Source of the DNA: a virus
Virus record (IMG/VR): IMGVR_UViG_3300010413_000294
Span: 1 to 21,001 of that record
Reading direction: 5' to 3' (one strand)
DNA: 21,001 nucleotides
In this document: one piece after another, positions 476 to 21,001 of the stretch
How positions within the stretch are numbered: the stretch's first letter is position 1
Layout of the letters: each line of letters opens with the position of its first letter
Position numbers and translations under genes: made by a program
The notes under the pieces: model-generated
Told to the model about the DNA's origin: nothing
Database searches by the model: none
What the model saw: the letters and a program-made list of their open reading frames with translations, nothing else

Positions 476-1426
476 TTAGGTGGTTAGAGCGGACATGTAG
501 TAGTGGGCATTACGCCTGGTACAAACCATGTTACCCTTCCACAGAATCTGCATGACTTTGACCGTCTGGTTGGTAGGAACCTTCCAGGGAGTCCGGGCGA
601 AGTTGCCTTTCTTGTGGACCACGAAACCCCAGTGCCGTGAGTTCAAGAAGAACCCAGCGCCTGAAGGACATTTGCCATCAGGCCAAACCTCAGCCTGATC
701 CAACATGAAGACGCCATCAAACCCAGCCTTTGCAGCCTGAGGAGATACCATCCGCTGAGCCTGTTGGAGTTGGTTCAGCCAAGCATCACACAGAGCATCC
801 GTAAGGATGATCATGTCGGGCTTGTCTTTCTTTGAGTCGCCAATCTTGACCGCAGTTCTAGCAGTACGAAGAACCGCAGAGGTGATCGGGGTGCTGGTTG
901 AGCTAGCATTGGCTTTCCACTTGCTCATGTCGGATTCAGCTATCCCGCCGTAAGCAGTTGTGGTGGTCGTGCCAAACAGCGCCAGGAGACCATCAAGGTC
1001 CTTGTTGCTGTTGCCAGTGCCATCAGAGTACAAGCCATCCGCCAAGTCCCACTGGATTGACATCTGGGCGTTCTCCAACTTGGTGATCAACATGTCAACT
1101 TCCTCTTCCGGGCCTGCATTCTCAAGCTCTTCGTCCCAGGTGATGGTGACGTTGACGTAGTAGTTCCTCCAGTTGAAGATTGCGGAGTTGGCTATCGTCT
1201 GGTGACTGGTGTCCAACTGGTCGGAACCGTAGAAGGAACCACCAACCATACGATCATAGGTCAAGGGGATTTTGATCTCTCGACCACCGGAGGGCTGGCG
1301 AAGGGGCTTTTTCAGCCCGCGCCGCAGGAGATAGTTCGAGTCAAAGTATTGATCGAACGCTTTCCCGCCATCAGCCATCCAGAAGGAGCGAGTCAAACTT
1401 TCGAGTTCAGTTCTGCTTAGTGCCAT
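476..1426 (-). CDS. Major capsid protein, HK97-fold type
   Basis: A 316-residue protein starting MALSRTELESLTRSFW at an ATG with AGGAGG 7 nt upstream. Recognisable features of the HK97-fold capsid family used by many environmental phages: an N-terminal helical segment ending in 'FDSNYLLRRG', the 'GGREIKIPLTYDR' segment, the 'ANSAIFNWRNYYVNVTITWDEELEN' region (E-loop to spine helix), a central 'LADGLYSDGTGN' stretch, and a C-terminal 'GFVVHKKGNFAR.PWKVP' strand region. No long N-terminal delta domain is seen, consistent with a separate scaffold gene just upstream (1476-2438). It is the subunit of the icosahedral shell. A hairpin overlapping its ribosome site and another after its stop suggest control of its very high expression. 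The family assignment is by motif reading. Confidence 0.93.
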   Translation of the reverse strand: MALSRTELESLTRSFWMADGGKAFDQYFDSNYLLRRGLKKPLRQPSGGREIKIPLTYDRMVGGSFYGSDQLDTSHQTIANSAIFNWRNYYVNVTITWDEELENAGPEEEVDMLITKLENAQMSIQWDLADGLYSDGTGNSNKDLDGLLALFGTTTTTAYGGIAESDMSKWKANASSTSTPITSAVLRTARTAVKIGDSKKDKPDMIILTDALCDAWLNQLQQAQRMVSPQAAKAGFDGVFMLDQAEVWPDGKCPSGAGFFLNSRHWGFVVHKKGNFARTPWKVPTNQTVKVMQILWKGNMVCTRRNAHYYMSALTT

Positions 1427-3848: not shown

Positions 3849-4204
3849 TTGAACCTCTCTTTGTAACGTGTCCTGTAGTTTGCCATCCTCTTGTTCTCTG
3901 TCTTCTGCCATTCATAGACAGGCTCTGGATGGGGCTCGGCGTACATCTCATCAATCTTCCTGACCATCTGCTCCCTTGTTTCTATCCTTTCCTCCCTCCC
4001 CCGGTTGACTAATTCAAGGTCGTTGACGATGCCGTTCATGTCCCTAATAAAGGCAGCATCTTGCCTCTTAACGAATGGGGCCGATACCAATCTCTCCATG
4101 TCCTTGTTGCACTTAGGACATTTAGGGATACAGTAATCGTTCATTTTGTGGAAAAACTCTTCCATTACCTCGCAAGCATGACAAACATAATCATACAGCG
4201 GCAT
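3845..4204 (-). CDS. FmdB-like zinc-ribbon protein (head-module copy)
   Basis: A 119-residue protein starting MPLYDYVCHACE at ATG 4202-4204, preceded by AGGAGG; it overlaps the end of the portal gene by 14 nt. The first 45 residues match the FmdB/CxxC-CxxC-SSSS pattern: M-P-x-Y-x-Y-x-C-x-x-C (Cys8, Cys11), then a CPKC pair (around 33-36) followed by MERLVSAP. The remaining 75 residues are a charged, helical tail (VNRGREERIETREQM...) unlike the short classical FmdB. Zinc binding is well supported; the partner and role in phage are not known. A second FmdB-like gene lies at 16376-16663. Confidence 0.85.
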   Translation of the reverse strand: MPLYDYVCHACEVMEEFFHKMNDYCIPKCPKCNKDMERLVSAPFVKRQDAAFIRDMNGIVNDLELVNRGREERIETREQMVRKIDEMYAEPHPEPVYEWQKTENKRMANYRTRYKERFK

Positions 4205-6188
4205 TAGGACCTCCTGCCTTGGCTGCATCAGCCTGGGCCTTTTTCATTTGGTTCACTGCGGCGTTGTACTCGCTCTCATCCATGTTGGCGATTTCCTGCA
4301 CCATCTGGATTACCTGAGGCGAGACCCCAAGGGCTTCCATCCTCTCAATGGTTGCACCAACAACACCCATTTCCATCCTCTTGATAACCTCAAGTCTGTC
4401 GGGCCAATCAAGTCTGATGAGTAATTCTCTGGTGTCGATAGCTCCTTGAGCATGGAGTTCCTTGGCCTCTTCTCTCTGTTGCATCCTGGAGGTTGGCATG
4501 GTAGAACCAGATACCACCGTGAAGTGGATGGGTATCATCATTTGAGCACTGGTAATGCTGTCAACCTCGGTGACCCCAGCCTCGGTCTTGGAGAACATGA
4601 TCCTGTCCTCTGTGTACCAGTTCTGTGCATGAGACAACCACATCCTACCACGATCTCTTAGCATCCTGCCGTAGCTCCTGATCTTTCCACGCAACATGGT
4701 GTGCATAGATTCGATGATGGTAGCAACGGTCTTGTATGCCATCCTACCTTTAGCGATACTCGGATCAGTCATATCAAACACCCCAGAGATTTTGTCGAAC
4801 ATTTCTCTGTAGATGTTTAACACTAACTCAATATCCCTCTGCGGCGGAGGGGGTTTCATGAATCCAATAGCACCAGCAACCACATGGTTTTTCGGTCTCA
4901 CAACTTGGGCAACTTGATTTGTAAAGTGGCTGTTTGGTATCCCCGAATCTTTCGGGTTTATCACAGGACTTCTTACTGCCTTGTCCTTCATTACGTTTAG
5001 CTGGCTTAGACATTTGTCAATCTCGAAGTTGAGCATCTCCAGTTGTTCTATGGAGCTAAACCCCCAAGGACTGACTACGTCCTTGTTGGATGGGGTTAGG
5101 GTGAATGGAAACTTATCCCAGAGATAGGTCTTTGATGCCATCTCAGGTGGCAGCATTGGGTTAATCGATGGGTTCTTTCTGTCACTGAGAACAACGTCAC
5201 CCATGTTACAGGTTGTGATACATCTCACATTGCCCGGATACTTGTTACGCATCTCGTATTGGGCTTGCTGCCTCATAACCTCTCCGGTTACTTGGTCTAT
5301 GTTTATTTGCTCAGGACTGATAAGAACTCTCTCCTGGGTATAGTCCTTGACCCACAACTCCAGGACTAGGACCTCATCCTCCTTACCCATCATCTTAGCA
5401 ACCTTATCAACGTTGCCCTCAAACGAAGCGTGATCTACCCCATAATCTCCGGTTTCGCCAGGTACTGCGCGAGTGGTTCCACCGTACACCTCATGCCTAC
5501 CCTCTCCAAGCTCTTTCCTCCAGGACCTGTCTGACTTTATACGGTCTGCCATGTCGGGCCATCTGCGTCTTGCCTGGTTGACTGGTATGGTGTAGTAGTA
5601 TAGTGCTGCTTCCCACTTGTGGGGACGCTTCTCATGCAAAGGCCAAAAGCCGAAGTAGTGTGGATCAATAGATATTGTCTCAACCTCACCAAGTCCGTTA
5701 TTGAGCATGGGGTTGAAGATAACCTTCTCAACTACACACCCACACACCTCCGCAGTTAACACTGAGTCTGCGTAAATATCTTGCTGCTCTGTCTCGGCCC
5801 ACCAATAAGTGGATGCCTTGTTGATTAACCGGGCGGGCTCATCAGCTTCTGACTGTATATCAAAGGTAGGGTTCTGATCTGTCAGAAGATTACATGTCCT
5901 GGAGATGTAAGTCCAGATCATGTTAACCGTAGAGAGCCTTGCGTTTCCTTTTGATCTCCAGTGTCTGGCCCGGAACAGTTCGTAGTTCCTAAACCACTTC
6001 TGAGGGAGTTTCTTTCTGCTCTTGTCTTCTATTACTTTTGCGAGAATGTTAAAGCAATGATGCCCAACATTCTCATCTCCCTCCACTGGGATGATGCACT
6101 TTATGGCTCTCTTCTCTTCCTTCTGCAGAGGCTCTTTCTCCTTGGTTGCAAAAGCCCCACCTTCCCCGGTCTTCTCAATCTCTGCCAT
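4191..6188 (-). CDS. Portal protein
   Basis: A 665-residue protein in the size range of large, P22-like portals. Diagnostic stretches: an early 'WFRNYELFRARHWRSKGNARLSTVNMIWTYI' region, 'ISIDPHYFGFWP', the central 'KFPFTLTPSNKDVVSPWGFSSIEQLEMLNFEIDKCLSQ' segment (a small-ligand-like loop followed by the long helix found in portal families), and 'SGVFDMTDPSIAKGRMAYKTVATIIESMHTMLRGKIRSYGRMLRDRGRMW', the crown-side helices. The C-terminal 60 residues are helical and Gln/Ala-rich. It forms the dodecameric ring at one vertex through which terminase pumps DNA. Start ATG 6188 has CGGAG about 8 nt upstream, immediately after the previous stop (6190). Its place after terminase and before scaffold/capsid is the classic order. 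Confidence 0.93.
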   Translation of the reverse strand: MAEIEKTGEGGAFATKEKEPLQKEEKRAIKCIIPVEGDENVGHHCFNILAKVIEDKSRKKLPQKWFRNYELFRARHWRSKGNARLSTVNMIWTYISRTCNLLTDQNPTFDIQSEADEPARLINKASTYWWAETEQQDIYADSVLTAEVCGCVVEKVIFNPMLNNGLGEVETISIDPHYFGFWPLHEKRPHKWEAALYYYTIPVNQARRRWPDMADRIKSDRSWRKELGEGRHEVYGGTTRAVPGETGDYGVDHASFEGNVDKVAKMMGKEDEVLVLELWVKDYTQERVLISPEQINIDQVTGEVMRQQAQYEMRNKYPGNVRCITTCNMGDVVLSDRKNPSINPMLPPEMASKTYLWDKFPFTLTPSNKDVVSPWGFSSIEQLEMLNFEIDKCLSQLNVMKDKAVRSPVINPKDSGIPNSHFTNQVAQVVRPKNHVVAGAIGFMKPPPPQRDIELVLNIYREMFDKISGVFDMTDPSIAKGRMAYKTVATIIESMHTMLRGKIRSYGRMLRDRGRMWLSHAQNWYTEDRIMFSKTEAGVTEVDSITSAQMMIPIHFTVVSGSTMPTSRMQQREEAKELHAQGAIDTRELLIRLDWPDRLEVIKRMEMGVVGATIERMEALGVSPQVIQMVQEIANMDESEYNAAVNQMKKAQADAAKAGGPNAAV

Positions 6189-6645: not shown

Positions 6646-6977
6646 TAGAAATACCCCCTAAGTTGGTCCGCTCTTGCGGCGTTTGCGTCAAAGTCTCTCG
6701 GTCTTTCCTGACCTGTCTGGTTGTATAGTTCCTCCAGTGCTTCGTCACTAAAGTCCGCAGGGAACTTATGACCACCCTGATCAGGAGACTGTAGAGCCAA
6801 GTCGAAGTATTCCTCGCTGACCTCATGTGGTATGAACTCGCTCTCTTCATGTGGTATGAAGAACCTACCACCTTCTGATGTTCTTGATCCTAGCCATACA
6901 CCGCCGAAGAGTATTAGTCCCCCGGCAAAAACACCTAACACAAAAGCCCCAAAACATGCTAGTATTAGTTCTACCAT
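6645..6977 (-). CDS. Membrane-anchored small protein (unknown)
   Basis: A 110-residue protein. Residues about 3-31 form a very hydrophobic, Gly-rich segment (ELILACFGAFVLGVFAGGLI...) that should span the membrane or act as an uncleaved signal anchor; the rest is acidic and soluble, with PHEESEFIPHEVSEE holding a short PHE repeat. The start overlaps the terminase stop by 7 nt, with GGAGG about 9 nt upstream. A membrane protein between large terminase and portal is unusual; possible roles are a virion-associated or injection-linked protein or a misplaced holin-like gene. No family is recognised. Confidence 0.7.
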   Translation of the reverse strand: MVELILACFGAFVLGVFAGGLILFGGVWLGSRTSEGGRFFIPHEESEFIPHEVSEEYFDLALQSPDQGGHKFPADFSDEALEELYNQTGQERPRDFDANAARADQLRGYF

Positions 6978-8602
6978 CGGTAATCTTCCTCCGGGTCTTC
7001 TACAGGATAACGTGACATCCTGTAAAATTCGTTTGCAAATTCCTCATACTGATCCTGGTACTCACCACCTGGTTGCTCTAGCCTGTCTGACCACTTATGC
7101 AGTGTTGTCTTTGGTGGTTCCTTGAATAACTCAGGATCATACTCTGAAAAGCCAAGCATCAAAGCGTCAGCGAAGTCGGGTGATTTAATCCCCTCTCTAC
7201 GCATCTTCTCCTTGGTCCATATCGCTATCTTCTGGCTACTGTTGTATTCGTACCTTAGGTTAGATAGCTGTTCCACTAACTGAACCATCGCCGTCTTCGA
7301 TAGCTTGTCAGCTATCGGTTTCAGCGAGATGCTTCCCTCTTCAAACCTTGACCTTAAATCCCAATAATACTCTGCTCTCAGGTTGGCGAACTTGTCTGGC
7401 TGGGTTGACTTCCTACTAACATCAACCCCTGTAACGTTGTGGCCTAGTTCCCATAGTCTGTCAACTACACCGCCACCAACGCCAGCCTCGTCTATCCTGA
7501 TGTCATCGGCATCCATGTAGGCAGTAAGCTTTGAAATCTTACCCGCCGTGACCATGGTGCTCTGTCTTGGGTACTGCCAAACAGCTACAACGCTTACCCC
7601 TCTGATCAGGACAAATACCGTCTTGTTCTCTCCATACCTGGCAATGTCAACACCACATGAGTCGAACTTCTTTCTCATTAAACGTTTAGGGTAAGATACT
7701 TCCCTCTTCATCGCAGCAACTATCCAATCCTTGGGGATCAGGGTGTAGTCGCTCTCAAGGGGAAACTCTCCCTTGACTCGAACACGATATACGTCAGATT
7801 CCTCTCCGTACTCAACAGCTATTTCCCGGATAAACCTTTCACTAACAAGCGGCGATTTTTCGCCGTTGAAGGTAAGGCAGTTCCATGGCTCTCCGTCCCA
7901 TAGCTCATGAGAGTTGTAGAAGAACCCAACTGTTCTGGTCGGGTTCGATGTCATCACGCAACGGTTATTGACATCAGTTAAAGCACCTCGAACAACTGTG
8001 AATACTTCCTCAGCCACACCCGAAGCTTCCTCAATTATGAACAACAAGTGCTCGCCGTGGAAGCCCTGTAGTGCTTCGGGCTTTTCCTTCCTGGCTGTTC
8101 TAGCAACGGCAAACCATGTCTTGTCGTGATCCTTGTGGTAGAACCTGTCACTGGTCATGACGAAGTAGCTCTTAAAGAATGGATCAAGCTTGTTCCACCA
8201 CTTGGCAAGTTCTGACCAGAGAACGTCTTTTAACTGTGCCTCGGTTGGTGCGGTACAGGGACACTTTGAGTGCTCCCTGGTATACATCCACCAGAGGATT
8301 ATCCAGGCATCAAACGCAGTCTTGCCAGTACCGTGACCAGACTTAATGGTCACATGGGTGTTGCTGGCTATTGCCTCAAGAGCTTTCCTTTGTTGATCTG
8401 TTGGGTCTGCGCCCAACATTTCTATTACGAATCGGTAAGGATTGTTCACGAACGGAGCCATCTTCCAAGACCAGTACCTCAAAGGATTCTGGCGCTTCAT
8501 CTCTTCCTCTATCAGTGCCAGTTCCAAGTCGTTCAGGCTCTTGTCCGCTTGTGATTCGCTCTTGAGCGCTTCTAATTTCTCTTGCTCTTTGTTCAAGGAC
8601 AT
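6971..8602 (-). CDS. terL: Terminase large subunit
   Basis: A 543-residue packaging motor. ATPase half: Walker A SGHGTGKT (about 88-95), Walker B LLFIIEEAS (about 186-194, Glu catalytic), coupling motif SNPTR (about 219-223). Nuclease half (RNase H-like): Asp at GVDIARYG (about 319), Asp at IRIDEAGVGGG (about 371) and SPDFADA (about 476-479), giving the usual acidic triad. It cuts concatemers and pumps DNA through the portal. The start is ATG at 8600-8602 with AGGAG 9 nt upstream; an in-frame TTG one codon earlier is less likely. The first 76 residues are encoded in DNA that also encodes the end of the upstream gene in another frame. Conserved sequence begins near residue 40 (NPLRYWSWKMAPF), so this overlap cannot be explained by choosing a later start. 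Confidence 0.96.
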   Translation of the reverse strand: MSLNKEQEKLEALKSESQADKSLNDLELALIEEEMKRQNPLRYWSWKMAPFVNNPYRFVIEMLGADPTDQQRKALEAIASNTHVTIKSGHGTGKTAFDAWIILWWMYTREHSKCPCTAPTEAQLKDVLWSELAKWWNKLDPFFKSYFVMTSDRFYHKDHDKTWFAVARTARKEKPEALQGFHGEHLLFIIEEASGVAEEVFTVVRGALTDVNNRCVMTSNPTRTVGFFYNSHELWDGEPWNCLTFNGEKSPLVSERFIREIAVEYGEESDVYRVRVKGEFPLESDYTLIPKDWIVAAMKREVSYPKRLMRKKFDSCGVDIARYGENKTVFVLIRGVSVVAVWQYPRQSTMVTAGKISKLTAYMDADDIRIDEAGVGGGVVDRLWELGHNVTGVDVSRKSTQPDKFANLRAEYYWDLRSRFEEGSISLKPIADKLSKTAMVQLVEQLSNLRYEYNSSQKIAIWTKEKMRREGIKSPDFADALMLGFSEYDPELFKEPPKTTLHKWSDRLEQPGGEYQDQYEEFANEFYRMSRYPVEDPEEDYRW

Positions 8603-8957
8603 CAAACGGTACTCCTGTAACCTCAGCCATCAGAATCTCTATTCTCTCGTTGAATGTGAAGTCCGCTCGTACTTCCTGCTTCTTTGATTCTGTAAGGTTG
8701 AGTATCTGGGTTGATAGGTAGTTAGCTCGGTCAATGTGGCCTAGCTCAAGAGCCTCAAGCAGGATACCCTTCTTTATTGTCCATGAAGCAGAGTTGAGAG
8801 CTTTCTTGAGTTGGGCTGCGGAGTTACAGTTCATGATCAGGTCGTATGCTTCTCCAAGTATCTCCTTGACCCTGATGCTTTCTACAACCCTAGACTCCGT
8901 AGCACCGCCGTCCTTCCTTTTCCTCTTTGGATTCTTTCGGCTGTAGTTTCTAGCCAT
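8376..8957 (-). CDS. Putative terminase small subunit
   Basis: A 193-residue protein immediately upstream of the large terminase, starting at ATG 8957 with AAGGAA upstream. It has a basic N-terminus (RKNPKRKRKDGG) and then an all-helical region (VKEILGEAYDLIMNCNSAAQLKKALNSASWTIKKGILLEALELG), as expected for a DNA-recognition/oligomerisation small subunit. The last 75 residues, from PFDVLEQRAREIRSAQ onward, are read in a different frame from the first 76 residues of the large subunit and look low in complexity (TSGQEPERLGTGTDRGRDEAPES). The identification rests mainly on position and helical content; the sequence family is not one I can name. Its position fits a packaging-initiation (cos/pac recognition) role. 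Confidence 0.65.
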   Translation of the reverse strand: MARNYSRKNPKRKRKDGGATESRVVESIRVKEILGEAYDLIMNCNSAAQLKKALNSASWTIKKGILLEALELGHIDRANYLSTQILNLTESKKQEVRADFTFNERIEILMAEVTGVPFDVLEQRAREIRSAQERITSGQEPERLGTGTDRGRDEAPESFEVLVLEDGSVREQSLPIRNRNVGRRPNRSTKESS

Positions 8958-10025: not shown

Positions 10026-13000
10026 TTATACCTCCAATAATTTTAGTTTAGCCTGTAGGTCCTCAATCATTTTCTCTTGATACTCTAGCCTCTCATAGAG
10101 TTGCCAAATGGCTCCATTGTGTAGGCGCTGTAGCTGTGCGCCGTTGATAAGTCCACCCTCGCTTGTCGGAGCACCAAGTATTCCAGCTTCTACCAGGGAA
10201 TCTTCATTGTACTTAATATGCTCATCAAACTTTGATCTGATAAAGTTCTTAGACGTTGACAGTGTCAATGCCCTGACAAGTTGTGCATCATCATACTCGT
10301 CAAACGCTGACCCGGTTCCATCGTAGAAGTAATCGCCCTCTGCATCAACTATAAACTTTGTACTAGAACCAGACCTAACGATAAAGATGTTGGCATTCGC
10401 TCCAGGTGTGGTAACGCCAGTTCCACTTTTAATCCACGCTCCCATCATTGTTGGTGCTGTCCCAGCCGTTGTCTTCGTTGTGTTCTCAACGGTATACATA
10501 GCAGTTATTGAGAGGGCTAAGTTGTCTTCGGTGTACGCCCTTAGACCAAGTCCACCAAGGGTTGCGCTTGCCTTAAGGAACTCAGCATAGGTTGAGGTAA
10601 CAACATAGTCAGTAATTCCATGAGCAACATCAGAACTCTGGAATTGCATAATCAGGGTGTCATTAGCTCCCTGATTTATGGTAAGGCTATCAAGAATCCT
10701 GGAGGGTGCGTTATGGTTTGAGTAAATAGCCCACTCAGATGTTACCGTTGCCCCATTATCTACCCTTGCTGTTATGTAAATTGAAGACATACTGGTTATG
10801 GTCCCAGCCGCATAACTGTATGGATAGATAAGTAAACCGTATGCGTTGTCAATCGTACCAGTACCTCCGGTGTAGAGACCGTAGGTAATAGCTTCAGCCG
10901 CTAAAGTTGCTAGGTCTCCAGCACCCTGTAGCATTGATTCAACATACAACCCCCTAGCATATCCATCATTGTCAATGCCAGAACCCTGAGTCTGTGTGGA
11001 AATAAATCCACCTCCTACATTGTAGTACGTTCCACTGGACGTGTGGGCCGAAGTTACGTTGCATTGCACCCCATAGTTTGTGGCGTTAATGTGATCTGTC
11101 TCGTATACCTTTATTCCTGCAGTGGCAGATACTGTTGCCCCTCCTACTGTAAGGTGACCAGCAAGCCACATATCACCGTCTTCGTCAAGGTGTAGCCTTG
11201 TTGTGATTGAGCCGCTAACATTGGCCCTGATTGAGAAGATATTTCCATCAGCCGTTACGTTGGCAAGGTTACCAGCACCATCATGTTCGTACACATCAAA
11301 GTTTATTAGCCCATATCCAGCGCTAGTCTTTGTGGTATCTGCCGTACCACCTATGGAGACAACGTTCCAGTTTATCCTATGTGAGGCATCGTCCTCACCA
11401 AGGGCGTAGATGTCGAGACCACCGTATGCCGCAGCTACCTTCCTCATGAAGCAGTAGGCAGAGGTAAGGCTAAGACCACTATACATTCCAGTGCTCACAT
11501 CGGAAGAGTAAAGTACTATAGCTCCATCATCAGCCGCTCCCTGGTCTATCCCCAATCCTGCGGTTGTAAATGAGGATGTTGTTGTGCCTATCAATACTGG
11601 TCCAGCCATGTAGTTGTAGGCCCCAGGAGTACCGGAGTTTGTGGTTATGTATCCACTCTGCCATAGGTCCCCATCTTCGTCAAAGAGAAACACCGTTGTG
11701 TTTACGCCACCCTTGCGACATTGAATACTAAGTATATTACCATCGGCAACAACGTTGTCCACCCCAGTGCCTGTTAGCTGGGCTATATACATATTTAATA
11801 TCCCATACCCAGCCCAGGTTTTAGTGGTATTGGCATTCTCGGCAAGGTACGCATTAAACGTCATAGCCAACGGTATACCATCGGCATCCTTATATGCGCT
11901 TAGCCTTAGTCCGCCAGATGCACCTTCGTGCGGTTTGAATGACGCATAGGTGTCAGTTTCTGCAAGGGTGGTAGCGCCATGGGCAACGTTGGTGTTCTTA
12001 AAGGCTAAAATTTCATCATCGTTTGCTCCCTGGTGTATGGTGAGACCAAGTGACATGTTGGCGTTTGAAGTTTCGTTTATGTAAATAGTATTGGAGAAGA
12101 TAGCACCACCACTCTGCCAAGTATCACCATCCTCATCGACAAGCCAAACCGTTGACAGTGCTCCACTCTTATACGCTCTGAAAGCTACTATGTTACCATC
12201 TGCAGCAATATCAGCCAGAGCACCGAAACCATCTTGTTGATAGACGTTTATCGAAACAAGGCCAAGACCCGCAGTTGACTTAGTGGTATCTGCGGTTCCA
12301 CCGTATGAGTCGAGAGTAAATACACCCTGTATGGCTGCAGCCTCAGCAATGGCTTCCATCCTTATCCCACCATTGCCAACCACTGCTTTCTGTAGGGTAA
12401 AGAAAGTATCAGTCTCGGTTATACCTGTTAAGCCATGAGAAACGTTTGTTGAATCCTTGAGTGCAAAAACCTCTGCGGTTGTCGCGGGTGCGTTGATAGT
12501 GATTCCATACTGCATCGCGGCGTTAGCGCTGTCATGGACGAAGTAAATGTCATTGGTCCAGTAGTGCTTATTTGTCCCACCATCTGCAAGCGCTGAATAT
12601 GTGGTGTGAAGAAGTAATTTATGTAATGGGTTTGGCACTACCTGAAAACAGAATGTGGAATTGGTAACATCATAGATAAAGAACCCATCATCAGTACCAC
12701 AACCCATACCGTAGTTCTGGGCATCGTTCTTGAAAACTGCGGTTGCTGCCTCATTTGTCCCAGCCGTCAGTTCAATCTTGCACGAACCTGTACTTGTTAT
12801 TAAGATATTATTTATAAGACTCATAATTCCAGCGCCATCGAATCCCATAAGCTGGACCCAGGCCCCAGATGAATAACTCTTAAATGAAAACGTGTCATCT
12901 ATGTTGGCGTTAAAACTCCACTTATCCGGGTTGTCATCTCCCTGATCTGCGTACATAAAAAAGTTTGCCGGGTTCGACTCTCCACCCTTGAGGTACATGT

Positions 13001-14156
13001 CTCCACCACTAACCGTTAGGTCAAGGTTAATCCCAACGTTGCCGTAAAAGGTAACCGTTGAGGAGGAGACATTCATTGCAAATGAGCCGCTAGCATAGAC
13101 ATAGAAACTACTCGTTCCAGAGCCTATGGAAGGAACTGAACCAGCAACCATGAACATCTCAGTATTATTGTTGGTTTCTCTGGCTATGAACCCAGGAACA
13201 CCCCCAGCATCGAAAACCTTAACCCCTATGTTTACTGACTGGGTTGTAGTCTCTGCGGTCCCAAGTATCATGTTCCCAGGAATGATTACGTTCCCGGAGG
13301 TGTCTAGGTCAAACTTGTCAACCCATGCTCCACTGGCATAGGATTGAAACGTAAGATGATTGTCTATGTGCGAAGAACAAATCCTCCAATAATCAGGGTT
13401 CTCTGATGCGTTGTCTGCATAGAGGTACAAGCTGGCAGTAGCGTCCTCTGCGGCCTTAATCATTATAAAGTTCGCATCTACTTCGAGTGCTCCGGTCATC
13501 ACCCTACTGCCATCAACCAACAGGTACTGGGTATGATCATCCTCCGATAAGCCAGAAATTGCTCCATGCCAGATATGTTGAGACAGGGCTGATGGTTTGA
13601 TCTCAAAATGAACTGTCCCAGACGCAGCCACTTTAGTTATGATCCCTACTCTCTGTATGCGTGTAGTAGCATCTACTGTTGGCTCTGTTGCCGTCCATGC
13701 CCCTGCGGAAGTTGCAGACAGATAAACCTCATCACCTTCGTTAAGCCCTAGTGTGTTCTGTGTTACTTCGCGGGTATGAGCGGCTAGACCAAAACCGTTA
13801 TTTGCAATAGATTCAATGATAACCATGTCGGCCCGGTCATGCCCTGTATCAGCCTGAGCCTTTTGAACCGTAGGCCAATTACCAGTTGATCCGCTAATAT
13901 ACACAAGGGTCCCAGCGGCAAGGGTGTCTCCTGTCTTGTTCTGCACAACCATCACCTGGTCATGCGCTATGTTGATCTCAACCCCAGAGTCATCTACACA
14001 AAATGGAAGAGAGCGCCCGGCTCGGTCCTTGCAATAGATGTCTATCTCAGTAGCACCAGGAGTGGGTGCGGCGGACTGGTCTTTAAGCGTCACCTGATCA
14101 AACTGGTGCTCTGCTATGACGTTAAAGTCAGCGTCTGATAGTAACATCCATGCCAT
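10026..14156 (-). CDS. Large modular tail fibre/virion appendage protein
   Basis: A 1376-residue protein. The N-terminal 210 residues hold a phage fibre-type region including 'HDQVMVVQNKTGDTLAAGTLVYISGSTGNWPTVQKA' and 'GDEVYLSATSAGAW'. Next comes 'GLSEDDHTQYLLVDGSRVMTGALEVDA', a linker typical of phage tail fibres. The middle is Gly/Ser/Thr-rich beta sequence with internal repeats: two related 'YAD...NPD.W...SYxSGAWV' blocks (about residues 240-460) and four longer modules (about 549-1275) each ending in a DEDGD- or DAEGD-type motif. The C-terminus has 'FDEYDDAQLVRAL...LQRLHNGAIWQLYERLEYQEKMIEDLQAKLKLLEV', ending in a coiled coil suited to trimerisation. Start ATG 14156 has a modest AGGA site. 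It probably contacts the host surface. Confidence 0.85.
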   Translation of the reverse strand: MAWMLLSDADFNVIAEHQFDQVTLKDQSAAPTPGATEIDIYCKDRAGRSLPFCVDDSGVEINIAHDQVMVVQNKTGDTLAAGTLVYISGSTGNWPTVQKAQADTGHDRADMVIIESIANNGFGLAAHTREVTQNTLGLNEGDEVYLSATSAGAWTATEPTVDATTRIQRVGIITKVAASGTVHFEIKPSALSQHIWHGAISGLSEDDHTQYLLVDGSRVMTGALEVDANFIMIKAAEDATASLYLYADNASENPDYWRICSSHIDNHLTFQSYASGAWVDKFDLDTSGNVIIPGNMILGTAETTTQSVNIGVKVFDAGGVPGFIARETNNNTEMFMVAGSVPSIGSGTSSFYVYASGSFAMNVSSSTVTFYGNVGINLDLTVSGGDMYLKGGESNPANFFMYADQGDDNPDKWSFNANIDDTFSFKSYSSGAWVQLMGFDGAGIMSLINNILITSTGSCKIELTAGTNEAATAVFKNDAQNYGMGCGTDDGFFIYDVTNSTFCFQVVPNPLHKLLLHTTYSALADGGTNKHYWTNDIYFVHDSANAAMQYGITINAPATTAEVFALKDSTNVSHGLTGITETDTFFTLQKAVVGNGGIRMEAIAEAAAIQGVFTLDSYGGTADTTKSTAGLGLVSINVYQQDGFGALADIAADGNIVAFRAYKSGALSTVWLVDEDGDTWQSGGAIFSNTIYINETSNANMSLGLTIHQGANDDEILAFKNTNVAHGATTLAETDTYASFKPHEGASGGLRLSAYKDADGIPLAMTFNAYLAENANTTKTWAGYGILNMYIAQLTGTGVDNVVADGNILSIQCRKGGVNTTVFLFDEDGDLWQSGYITTNSGTPGAYNYMAGPVLIGTTTSSFTTAGLGIDQGAADDGAIVLYSSDVSTGMYSGLSLTSAYCFMRKVAAAYGGLDIYALGEDDASHRINWNVVSIGGTADTTKTSAGYGLINFDVYEHDGAGNLANVTADGNIFSIRANVSGSITTRLHLDEDGDMWLAGHLTVGGATVSATAGIKVYETDHINATNYGVQCNVTSAHTSSGTYYNVGGGFISTQTQGSGIDNDGYARGLYVESMLQGAGDLATLAAEAITYGLYTGGTGTIDNAYGLLIYPYSYAAGTITSMSSIYITARVDNGATVTSEWAIYSNHNAPSRILDSLTINQGANDTLIMQFQSSDVAHGITDYVVTSTYAEFLKASATLGGLGLRAYTEDNLALSITAMYTVENTTKTTAGTAPTMMGAWIKSGTGVTTPGANANIFIVRSGSSTKFIVDAEGDYFYDGTGSAFDEYDDAQLVRALTLSTSKNFIRSKFDEHIKYNEDSLVEAGILGAPTSEGGLINGAQLQRLHNGAIWQLYERLEYQEKMIEDLQAKLKLLEV
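10321..12510 (-). repeat. Four diverged protein-coding modules within the fibre gene
   Basis: Four units of about 370-405 nt: about 12111-12510, 11650-12055, 11160-11562 and 10321-10688. Each begins with an N/D-Q-G-A-x-D-type phrase or its diverged form, passes through 'VAHG/VSHG', an 'ETDT' or 'TSTYAEF' phrase, a 'GGxxxxA' strand, 'ADTTKTSAG' or 'NTTKTxAG', 'ADGNIxSI' and ends in DEDGD-W (DAEGD-Y in the last). Between units three and four lie about 120 unrelated residues. The similarity is at protein level; DNA copies have diverged, indicating old duplications. Confidence 0.7.
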
Positions 14157-14165
14157 GGCTTTATC

Positions 14166-14600
14166 CTAGAAAGTGGTGGCGAATGAGGCATAAGATTCGG
14201 TTGCCCTGTTCGTCCACGCTGTTGAGTATCCGCTTGTACCCTTAGTAAACGTTATTGCTCCAGTGGTGGTATCAATCTTCTTAATGAAGTACAGACCGTC
14301 CTTGTCCTCATACCCAAGATAGATGGTTGTAGTAGACGTGTCATAATTAGATAGCTTGTACTGGTCGAGCTTATCAAGGACGTACTGCTCAAGGTCATCA
14401 ACCGCGACATACAGGTCTCCAGCCTCAATGACTGGTTGAACCATCTTCTCCCACTGTAGGGTAGACGTGTTCCAAACGTACATCTGGGAAGCGAGCCCTG
14501 ATACTGTGGCGTCACCCTTGATCTCTCCGGTGTCGGGATCAAGTAAACCTATTAGCTGGTACTTATCAGTGTGTGCCTGTATGTTTGTTGACTTACCCAT
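14166..14600 (-). CDS. Tail-associated structural protein (probable)
   Basis: A 144-residue protein, first in the virion module after the central terminator. Start ATG 14598-14600 with AGGAGA 5 nt upstream. It has 'DDLEQYVLDKLDQYKLSNYD', then 'TSTTTIYLGYEDKDGLYFIKKIDTTTGAITFTKGTSGYSTAWTNRA', ending in an aromatic tail. The 'Y.GY.DKDG.xYI...TTG...FxKGxSxYxxxWTNR' pattern is one I recognise from phage tail or baseplate-associated proteins encoded beside fibre genes. It stops 10 nt before the fibre ATG, so the two are probably co-translated partners. Exact location in the virion is unknown. Confidence 0.75.
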   Translation of the reverse strand: MGKSTNIQAHTDKYQLIGLLDPDTGEIKGDATVSGLASQMYVWNTSTLQWEKMVQPVIEAGDLYVAVDDLEQYVLDKLDQYKLSNYDTSTTTIYLGYEDKDGLYFIKKIDTTTGAITFTKGTSGYSTAWTNRATESYASFATTF

Positions 14601-14610
14601 CTTGTCTCCT

Positions 14611-14665
14611 AAAAACTAAAGGGGTATAGGAGTGTAGTATTTATACTACATCCTAATACCCCTTT
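14611..14665 (-). terminator. Strong intrinsic terminator upstream of the virion operon
   Basis: A 23/23-nt imperfect inverted repeat (14618-14665), AAAGGGGTAT-AGGA-TGTAGTAT arms with two single-nt bulges and a tiny loop, followed on the minus strand by TTTAGTTTTT (ending at 14611). The stem directly precedes the AGGAGA ribosome site of the 14600 gene. On the plus strand the trailing sequence is A-rich, so only the minus strand gives a terminator. It would end transcripts coming from the small-protein array and the structured RNA, unless read-through or antitermination applies. Confidence 0.75.
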
Positions 14666-14676
14666 AATAAAAGTCA

Positions 14677-14807
14677 GCCACACCGTTCCGCGAGAGACCT
14701 TCCCCTATTCTAGTCTCCCTGACGCAGGCCCCTGATCAGCAAGCCCTCGCTGTCGCAAAGGCTAAGCCCACTCCTTCGACACGAAGTCGTAAGGGGATTG
14801 GTGTGGC
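14677..14807 (-). ncRNA. Candidate structured noncoding RNA, class not recognised
   Basis: A non-coding 131-nt element closed by a perfect 8-bp stem, GCCACACC/GGTGTGGC. Within it, read on the minus strand: a hairpin CCTT-A-CGAC/GTCG-AAGG (14773-14794); a 9-bp hairpin with a GACA loop (14742-14763); a hairpin CTGA..CAG-GGGC-CTG..TCAG (14719-14739); and a 7-bp stem GGGAGAC/GTCTCTC around a 14-nt loop (14692-14719; its last pair shares base 14719 with the previous hairpin). At least three pairs are G-U on the minus strand and would be A-C mismatches on the plus strand, which favours a minus-strand RNA. AGGGGA in the last loop can pair with TCCCCT just inside the closing stem, a possible pseudoknot. 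The terminator follows 12 nt later. No tRNA, tmRNA, hammerhead or riboswitch consensus was seen. Confidence 0.65.
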
Positions 14808-14814
14808 GGGGAAG

Positions 14815-15159
14815 CTATTGACTATTTACCCATGCTTGTATTTCCTCATTTGATGGTATTTTGTTCCTTGGTAGCTGACCAACTCCATGACACCACTTGC
14901 AAGGTCGCGGGTACATCCACCCTTCGACCATAACTTTACCATGACCATCACACGCACTGCATACTGTGTGGTTCTCAATGAATGCACAGTACCTAGTGTC
15001 TGTGAGGACTAACTTCGATTGCTGGGCCGAAATCAGCCTCTTTATCTCCTCCGTAAATTCGTTTGATTCCTTCTGAGATGTACTCGAAGCATTTTTCGAT
15101 TCTTTCCTTCTCTTCAGCATCTGGAGGATTTGTCGGATCAAAGGCAAGTTCGATAACAT
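14815..15159 (-). CDS. DnaJ-type zinc-finger small protein
   Basis: A 114-residue frame whose C-terminal third has two C-x-x-C-x-G-x-G knuckles: CSACDGHG and CKWCHGVG, as in the zinc domain of DnaJ and in many phage small proteins. The best start is ATG 15157-15159 with AGGTGG upstream, an in-frame ATG 12 codons earlier having no good site. The first 55 residues are read over DNA that also encodes the previous gene in another frame, so the true N-terminus is uncertain; a non-ATG start nearer the fingers or a frameshift product are alternatives. It ends 7 nt before the structured RNA element. One zinc ion is expected; the partner is unknown. Confidence 0.7.
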   Translation of the reverse strand: MLSNLPLIRQILQMLKRRKESKNASSTSQKESNEFTEEIKRLISAQQSKLVLTDTRYCAFIENHTVCSACDGHGKVMVEGWMYPRPCKWCHGVGQLPRNKIPSNEEIQAWVNSQ

Positions 15160-15295
15160 AATTCCACCTTTCCTCTTCTTTGGCAAATGGGTCATAGAAT
15201 ACTAAACTGAATCCAACACACGGTGCTTCCTTCTTGCTACATATCCTTCTCACAGCCTGTGCAGTCTTCTCTATCCATTTCGTCAATGTCATCAT
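14993..15295 (-). CDS. Small acidic/amphipathic protein (unknown)
   Basis: A 100-residue protein starting MMTLTKWIEKTAQAV; ATG 15293-15295 with AAGGA about 9 nt upstream. The core 'CVGFSLVFYDPFAKEEERWNYVIELAFDPTNPPDAEEKERIEKCFEYISEGIKRIYGG' looks like a folded alpha/beta domain. It overlaps the upstream zinc gene by 59 nt and the downstream zinc gene by 167 nt, both in other frames. No family is recognised; three Cys residues are not arranged as a zinc site. Confidence 0.6.
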   Translation of the reverse strand: MMTLTKWIEKTAQAVRRICSKKEAPCVGFSLVFYDPFAKEEERWNYVIELAFDPTNPPDAEEKERIEKCFEYISEGIKRIYGGDKEADFGPAIEVSPHRH

Positions 15296-15443: not shown

Positions 15444-15715
15444 ATCATCTCCTCTCTTTGGTATCTACGATAACCAAAGAATCCGCCACATGCCTTGCAT
15501 ATCATGACGCTTCTCTGCTCATCTTCCCTGAAGTTCTTGCAGTGACATGGTTTACCATTAACTATGTGCTGACAAAGGGCTCCGTATTGTCTTTCCGTTG
15601 TGGGGTCTGCAGCGCCCGAAGAAGTGACGGTACACACAACAACAAAGACCTCTGAGCTAAGGAGATTGCCAGCTTCATCGTATTCGTAATTTAGTGTTTC
15701 GTCCCTACTTGGCAT
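15440..15715 (-). CDS. Zinc-ribbon small protein
   Basis: A 91-residue protein starting MPSRDETLNYEYDEAGNLLS. ATG 15713-15715 has AAGGA 4 nt upstream; an upstream in-frame TTG is less likely. A beta-rich N-terminal half (EVFVVVCTVTSSGA) is followed by ALCQHIVNGKPCHCKNF and MICKACGGFFGYRR, giving a probable four-Cys zinc site. It overlaps its upstream neighbour by 25 nt and its downstream neighbour by 4 nt. No named family. Confidence 0.7.
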   Translation of the reverse strand: MPSRDETLNYEYDEAGNLLSSEVFVVVCTVTSSGAADPTTERQYGALCQHIVNGKPCHCKNFREDEQRSVMICKACGGFFGYRRYQREEMM

Positions 15716-15930
15716 TGTATCCTTATCCTCCAACTATTTCCACAGCATAGACACTTGATCTTTGTTGTTACAAATTTCTCAAGACATGGGAACCATGTGT
15801 CAAAGGACTGTGGTGTCCTTCCGCAAGTACATTTCCAATTCCAGCCTAGAGCGAACCGTTTCGCGTCCTTTACAATAGAGAACGTGCTTGGGCGCGGTTC
15901 TGGTAGGCAATACCCTTCTGATTGTTCCAT
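15691..15930 (-). CDS. Zinc-ribbon small protein
   Basis: A 79-residue protein starting MEQSEGYCLPEPRPS; ATG 15928-15930 with a GAGGCAGG region upstream. Cys pairs KCTCGR and IKCLCCGNSW, plus single Cys in WFPCLEKF and RIQCQVG, fit a zinc ribbon with knuckles about 25 residues apart. An aromatic WNW segment precedes the first knuckle. It overlaps both neighbours out of frame. Unknown role. Confidence 0.65.
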   Translation of the reverse strand: MEQSEGYCLPEPRPSTFSIVKDAKRFALGWNWKCTCGRTPQSFDTWFPCLEKFVTTKIKCLCCGNSWRIRIQCQVGTKH

Positions 15931-16835: not shown

Positions 16836-16999
16836 GGCATAGTCCTCACCAGGCAGTGAATACACATGCCATCCTTCAGAGCGATGCAGCCGCATTTGCA
16901 GCTTTCTTTGTCTCGCTCATTCTCTTCTATCTTCCTCAAGATAGAATCGGTTCTCACATGGTCGATCTGACCTGATGCGTAACTTCTGTCTTCGCTCAT
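16832..16999 (-). CDS. Cys-rich micro-protein
   Basis: A 55-residue protein starting MSEDRSYASGQIDHVRTDSI. ATG 16997-16999 overlaps the upstream stop as ATGA, and its own stop overlaps the next start as ATGA. A helical charged N-terminal half (ILRKIEENERDKE) is followed by SCKCGCIAL and CIHCLVR, giving five Cys arranged as a compact zinc site. Its double ATGA coupling and clean Cys pattern make it convincing despite the small size. Confidence 0.7.
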   Translation of the reverse strand: MSEDRSYASGQIDHVRTDSILRKIEENERDKESCKCGCIALKDGMCIHCLVRTMP

Positions 17000-20625: not shown

Positions 20626-21001
20626 CGAATCGCACAGCTTCTTCAGCGACTCTAGCGACTCCGGGCCAGTTAGGTTTACCGTAATCGTGAAACGCAATGT
20701 AGCCCCCTTTTGGCACGAACCTACCAAAGTAGCTGTATTCATGCAGGACGTTGAGTTGTAGGTGTGAACCGTCAATCATCAAGAAGGGGATTGACAGTTC
20801 TCTGGGCCAGATGATGTCTTCTGACAAGCCATCCAGCCTTACTATCTTGTGATCCACTTTATGTCTCTTGAAATTATCCGTTACCTCCTTGACCCTCTCT
20901 TGCTGTATGGGACCCCTTGCTTCCGGTGTGCCACAGAAGAATTTGCAGTTAGGGTCTATGGTTACCACGTCAAAAATCCCATACTTGGCTAGCAGTATGG
21001 C
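20567..21001 (-). CDS. Class I SAM-dependent methyltransferase fragment (5' end off window)
   Basis: Open to the right edge, 144 codons visible. Near the edge comes 'YGIFDVVTIDPNC', a motif-II-like strand ending in an acidic residue; further on are 'SIPFLMIDGSHLQLNVLHEYSYFGRFVPKGGYIAFHDYGKPNWPGVARVAEEAV', the hallmark of the Methyltransf_24-type family (strand 4 Asp, 'D.SH....V..D......L..GG.i..HDY'). The glycine-rich motif I lies outside the window. Such phage enzymes often sit beside glycan-modifying genes and use sugar or other small acceptors; the substrate is unknown. The neighbouring sulfotransferase-like gene suggests a surface- or metabolite-modification pair (inference). Confidence 0.85.
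   Translation of the reverse strand, partial: AILLAKYGIFDVVTIDPNCKFFCGTPEARGPIQQERVKEVTDNFKRHKVDHKIVRLDGLSEDIIWPRELSIPFLMIDGSHLQLNVLHEYSYFGRFVPKGGYIAFHDYGKPNWPGVARVAEEAVRFDGFRVSHKRGYLCVLQRED

Follow-up and report, generated by a model that had tools for sequence, protein, structure and literature searches.

The minus strand of the analysed stretch of DNA (the window, which is the whole IMG/VR record IMGVR_UViG_3300010413_000294 of 21,001 bases, a tailed-phage genome fragment) carries the main genes, running from an array of small-protein genes into the virion operon, and harbors a GC-rich block of 138 nt at the junction of the two. The block is a real sequence feature, and that it forms a structured RNA is plausible but unproven. 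Our tentative interpretation is that of an optional RNA domain in the leader of the virion operon, where it would most likely influence termination or read-through in cis. The TAG stop codon of the 126-aa gene that closes the array, of which several members resemble zinc ribbons, directly precedes the block (Table 1). An intrinsic terminator right after the RNA had been noticed in a sequence-only reading of this DNA, and its hairpin and T-tract (14665-14611) are found 11 nt past the block. The same reading had taken the block as noncoding, with which the open frames agree: on the plus strand a single frame is open (P0001, 59 codons; no match in Pfam or among phages), and the other two hold stops.

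Table 1. Position of the candidate RNA, its predicted helices and the neighboring genes in the window.
Feature	Position	Strand	Remarks
Last small-protein-array gene	14815..15195	-	126 aa; DnaJ-type CxxC zinc motif, weak match
Whole candidate RNA block	14677..14814	-	138 nt, 61% G+C; begins right behind the upstream stop codon, ends with P1
Pseudoknot 5' strand CUUCCCC	14808..14814	-	abuts closing stem; unpaired in nested ensemble
Closing stem P1, 5' arm GCCACACC	14800..14807	-	8 bp
Helix P2, 5' arm UCC	14795..14797	-	weak, 3 bp, MFE
Hairpin P3	14773..14794	-	8 bp, one bulged A, loop UUCGU
Hairpin P4	14724..14771	-	composite: 9 bp capped by GACA and 8 bp below 10-nt bulge
Hairpin P5	14692..14719	-	7-8 bp; loop holds pseudoknot strand
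Pseudoknot 3' strand GGGGAAG	14699..14705	-	in P5 loop; last G paired in nested fold
Helix P2, 3' arm GGA	14687..14689	-	weak, 3 bp, MFE
Closing stem P1, 3' arm GGUGUGGC	14677..14684	-	8 bp
Intrinsic terminator	14611..14665	-	bulged hairpin and GTTTTT
Shine-Dalgarno AGGAG of first virion-operon gene	14606..14610	-	adjoins terminator T-tract; from sequence
First virion-operon gene	14166..14600	-	144 aa, synteny-conserved
1376-aa protein gene	10026-14156	-	follows first virion-operon gene
Terminase	6971-8605	-	
P22-like portal	4191-6188	-	
Major head protein	476-1426	-	

A perfect 8-bp closing stem and four further helices had been described for the RNA, and both descriptions hold. The P1 pairing of GCCACACC with GGTGTGGC (14800-14807/14677-14684) is exact over 8 bp, and P2 (weak), P3, P4 and P5 occur in the MFE as well as the centroid structure. 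The lower part of P4 is replaced in several suboptimal folds, and its 10-nt bulge contains the palindrome CUGAUCAG. In addition, a pseudoknot of 7 bp between CUUCCCC (14814-14808) and GGGGAAG (14705-14699) is predicted from this one sequence, with a duplex energy of -11.2 kcal/mol. Its formation barely alters the nested fold (-59.0 vs -60.8 kcal/mol), and P5, the pseudoknot and P1 are placed such that they could stack end to end. The 5' strand of the pseudoknot fills the space from the stop codon to the closing stem, which lengthens the element to 14814; of the 131 nt delimited originally (14677-14807) the stem stands, whereas the end has to be moved. The minus strand reaches an MFE of -61.9 kcal/mol (137 nt; z -3.05, 200 shuffles) and the plus strand folds less well (-48.9 kcal/mol, z -1.71), in line with the earlier argument from G-U pairs for a minus-strand RNA.

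The surroundings of the block are conserved in four viral contigs (L005, L012, L013 and L014), which keep the gene order on both sides of the junction. In these and the window phage (five of five) the terminator is located at the same place and abuts the virion ribosome-binding site; its stems differ in sequence among the five phages, with the pairing kept. In the window, the 71-nt stretch that holds it folds with -30.8 kcal/mol (z -6.5). Only 10-15 nt separate the T-tract from the start codon in the five phages. Therefore, there would be no room for a promoter between them, and thus the virion operon would be reached at least partly by read-through of the terminator, which would make the terminator an attenuator. 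Most likely, it is passed by some polymerases. A promoter inside the terminator hairpin was also considered and rejected, as the TATAAA in the loop of the window's hairpin has a poor -35 and is not shared by L012-L014.

The block itself is present only in the window phage among the five compared: the gap between stop codon and terminator measures 149 nt there vs 27-33 nt, with a small hairpin, in the four syntenic relatives. The tree of terminases, whose root is uncertain, joins the window to L008, the closest to it by terminase (82%), and sets the syntenic loci apart on the opposite side. As L008 ends short of the region, either a gain of the block in the window lineage or its loss in the syntenic loci would fit.

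Promoter-like sites in the coding sequence upstream of the junction do not exceed those in shuffles. As the upstream stop codon immediately precedes the block, any promoter of its own would sit inside coding sequence, and the 'stand-alone' small RNA of the sequence-only reading is unsupported. Most likely, the block belongs to the transcript of the small-protein array. A promoter-like site (11/12) is found at the head of the array (18761-18734, minus strand), with a similar one in the matching part of L018 (4498-4525, plus strand), and the nearest good promoter-like site is ~3.9 kb from the candidate RNA. Both 11/12 sites are followed by TTAACATGG and by an ATG ~10 nt past the -10 box, which suggests that the mRNA from these sites might be nearly leaderless.

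Most likely, the block acts in cis. The minus-strand RNA domain is flanked by the last array gene and by the terminator closing the array; it would emerge just ahead of this terminator and influence the termination decision, and RNA polymerase reading through would reach the virion genes. Potentially, the domain influences the elongation complex in the manner of put, EAR or LoaP, or it might stabilize the terminated transcript at its 3' end. That the RNA regulates the virion operon had been among the earlier ideas, and of these it is the best fit to the position. The RNA block and the terminator fold side by side as independent modules; CCCC of the block (14811-14808) can form four G-C pairs with GGGG of the terminator in truncated transcripts only, and these are lost once the terminator is complete. 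As the two fold together without a competing antiterminator, a classical riboswitch switch is unsupported, as is a metabolite riboswitch, there being no mutually exclusive antiterminator and at most these four alternative pairs in truncated transcripts. The cis role is supported by the terminators of five phages and the gene order conserved on both sides, by the 11/12 site at the array head together with no supported promoter at the junction, by the independence of the two modules, the minus-strand bias and the rarity of stem plus pseudoknot in shuffles, and by the precedents of HK022 put and the LoaP-bound dfn hairpin (PMC9378689; PMC12691694). It is weakened because four relatives have this boundary and lack the block, because no strong antiterminator pairing is predicted, and because there is no homologue for covariation and the z-score is unexceptional in the window.

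The EAR (epsC) RNA, an antitermination element of exopolysaccharide operons, is a leader RNA sized like the block. A pseudoknot was predicted for EAR as well (PMC2864571), and the position of the block would fit, its own 7-bp pseudoknot being predicted from one sequence only. However, the block gave no match to the epsC covariance model (Rfam, gathering threshold and up to E 10), lies among other genes and has no covariation support. HK022 put (putL/putR) is a phage RNA that acts in cis and, with no protein partner, enables RNA polymerase to pass terminators (PMC9378689); for the block, such a role in read-through is proposed only. The put RNA has ~70 nt and two stem-loops (PMC9378689) and is found near early promoters, whereas the block has 138 nt, a closing stem with four helices and a predicted pseudoknot, stands immediately ahead of a single terminator and has its nearest good promoter ~3.9 kb away. 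The LoaP-bound dfn hairpin is likewise an RNA structure upstream of a leader terminator and is required for read-through (PMC12691694), but it is a single UNCG-type hairpin recognized by a NusG-like protein. That the block represents a new phage RNA class, namely a knotted element with a multi-way junction, acquired or lost as a whole at the conserved attenuator ahead of the virion operon, that lets polymerase pass in a put-like manner with a different fold, is improbable, and any claim to a new class rests on one sequence. If the block controls read-through, the phage would possess a virion-gene switch with an architecture unlike HK022 put, and the relatives without the block would offer a natural comparison of the two states. 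Otherwise, the conserved terminator abutting the virion operon in five phages is a clear testable attenuator.

Alternatively, termination at 14611 and processing could release a small RNA of ~140-200 nt that acts in trans by binding a host or phage protein or RNA, which we consider rather unlikely but a serious rival. The compact, GC-rich and knotted predicted fold and the strong terminator behind it would suit such an RNA, and the palindrome exposed in the P4 bulge could let two copies pair. However, a promoter of its own is unsupported, such that processing from the array mRNA would be needed, and the 50,697 phage records and related viral contigs searched contained no homologue. No known class had been recognized in the RNA before, and Rfam 15 confirms this with no gathering match in the window and none over 14677-14814 up to E 10. 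The block found nothing by blastn in the 50,697 phage records, in plasmids or in E. coli genomes, a result that speaks also against its being a piece of tRNA or rRNA; the window contains no tRNA. Exact 21-mers of the block are absent from 84,980 species genomes, and exact-pattern matches (2 and 27) in viral and genome contigs were discarded, as they share ~16-18 bases only and give no model match at E < 1. A single-sequence covariance model, run on related loci and whole records (26 sources and 7 records), recovered only the block itself. Six related records, some being fragments, gave it no match, and the records of L005 (54.9 kb) and L012 (47.6 kb) are negative over their full length. Relatives collected via the terminase, the 144-aa and the 126-aa proteins show synteny and lack the RNA. 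Thus, with no homologue among the compared relatives, the fold has no covariation backing. A diversity-generating template was rejected, there being no second copy within the window.

The strength of the fold bears on the question whether the block is an RNA element at all. No other stretch of 138 nt in the window is as GC-rich as the block (61% vs 48%), and the high absolute stability of the block is mostly due to G+C. The folding statistics are modest and not exceptional within the window (z -2.1 to -3.05): in a coarse sliding-window fold scan with 25 shuffles the block has a z of only -2.1, and several coding windows score below it (z -3 to -4.7). Coding stretches at 20701-20838 (minus strand) and 16837-16974 (plus strand) show a z of -4.7, lower than the candidate RNA. 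An 8-bp stem near both ends of the block appeared in 590 of 100,000 shuffles (0.6%), and the stem with an abutting 7-bp pseudoknot in 7 of 100,000, a test named after the pairing had been seen. A looser stem-plus-pseudoknot pattern occurs ~20 times in 750 kb of strands, so that one such pattern in the window is no surprise; what matters is its location in the sole GC-rich noncoding block. The fold at this position is unlikely by chance, but not overwhelmingly so. A GC-rich insert that has no function or acts at the DNA level (debris of a mobile element, a palindromic element or an acquired fragment), with a partly fortuitous fold, is likewise rather unlikely but a serious rival. The block is private to one contig and an outlier in composition, and its stability and the chance frequency of the looser pattern are in keeping with an insert. 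Against it speak the exact fit between stop codon and terminator, the better folding of the transcribed strand, the abutting of pseudoknot and closing stem, the absence of copies from E. coli genomes, plasmids, phages and, as exact 21-mers, the species genomes, and the fact that no clear target duplication was seen.

It is very improbable that the block is a 3' end protection element of the array mRNA that leaves the terminator unaffected. Its place behind the last array gene and ahead of the terminator would suit this, and a knotted, stacked fold could resist exonucleases; however, the terminator hairpin alone should suffice against 3' exonucleases, and the relatives do without the block. The pRNA of phi29 is a structured phage RNA of comparable length, and a packaging RNA of this kind, proposed earlier and in agreement with size and multi-helix shape, is barely credible, since relatives that share the terminase (62-67%), portal and capsid have no block here and no model match in their records, and the block matches no Rfam family.

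A noncoding region common to four other relatives (L034:18350-18700, minus strand; L017:93-445; L015:1155-1510; L016:2215-2530) has no similarity to the block and was rejected as a homologue. Three of them are 77-80% identical there, and in the fourth the similarity is patchy; the region has a TATAAT box that follows TG or GG, and its GAGAGTGGCACACTCTC hairpin is perfectly conserved. In L034 and L032 a cluster of tRNAs lies nearby, and the counterpart of the region in the window phage would fall past the window end. Within the small-protein array, an 11-bp inverted repeat spans 132 bases (15638-15769). Several parts of the 1376-aa protein, which has no match in Pfam or PHROGs, match the same regions of the relatives' proteins, and this points to probable internal repeats. 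Four other viral contigs (L003, L004, L006 and L007) carry, in proteins that otherwise differ, the C-terminal half of the 144-aa protein (GTSGYSTAWTNRA), which, judged from these sequences, would be an exchangeable module.
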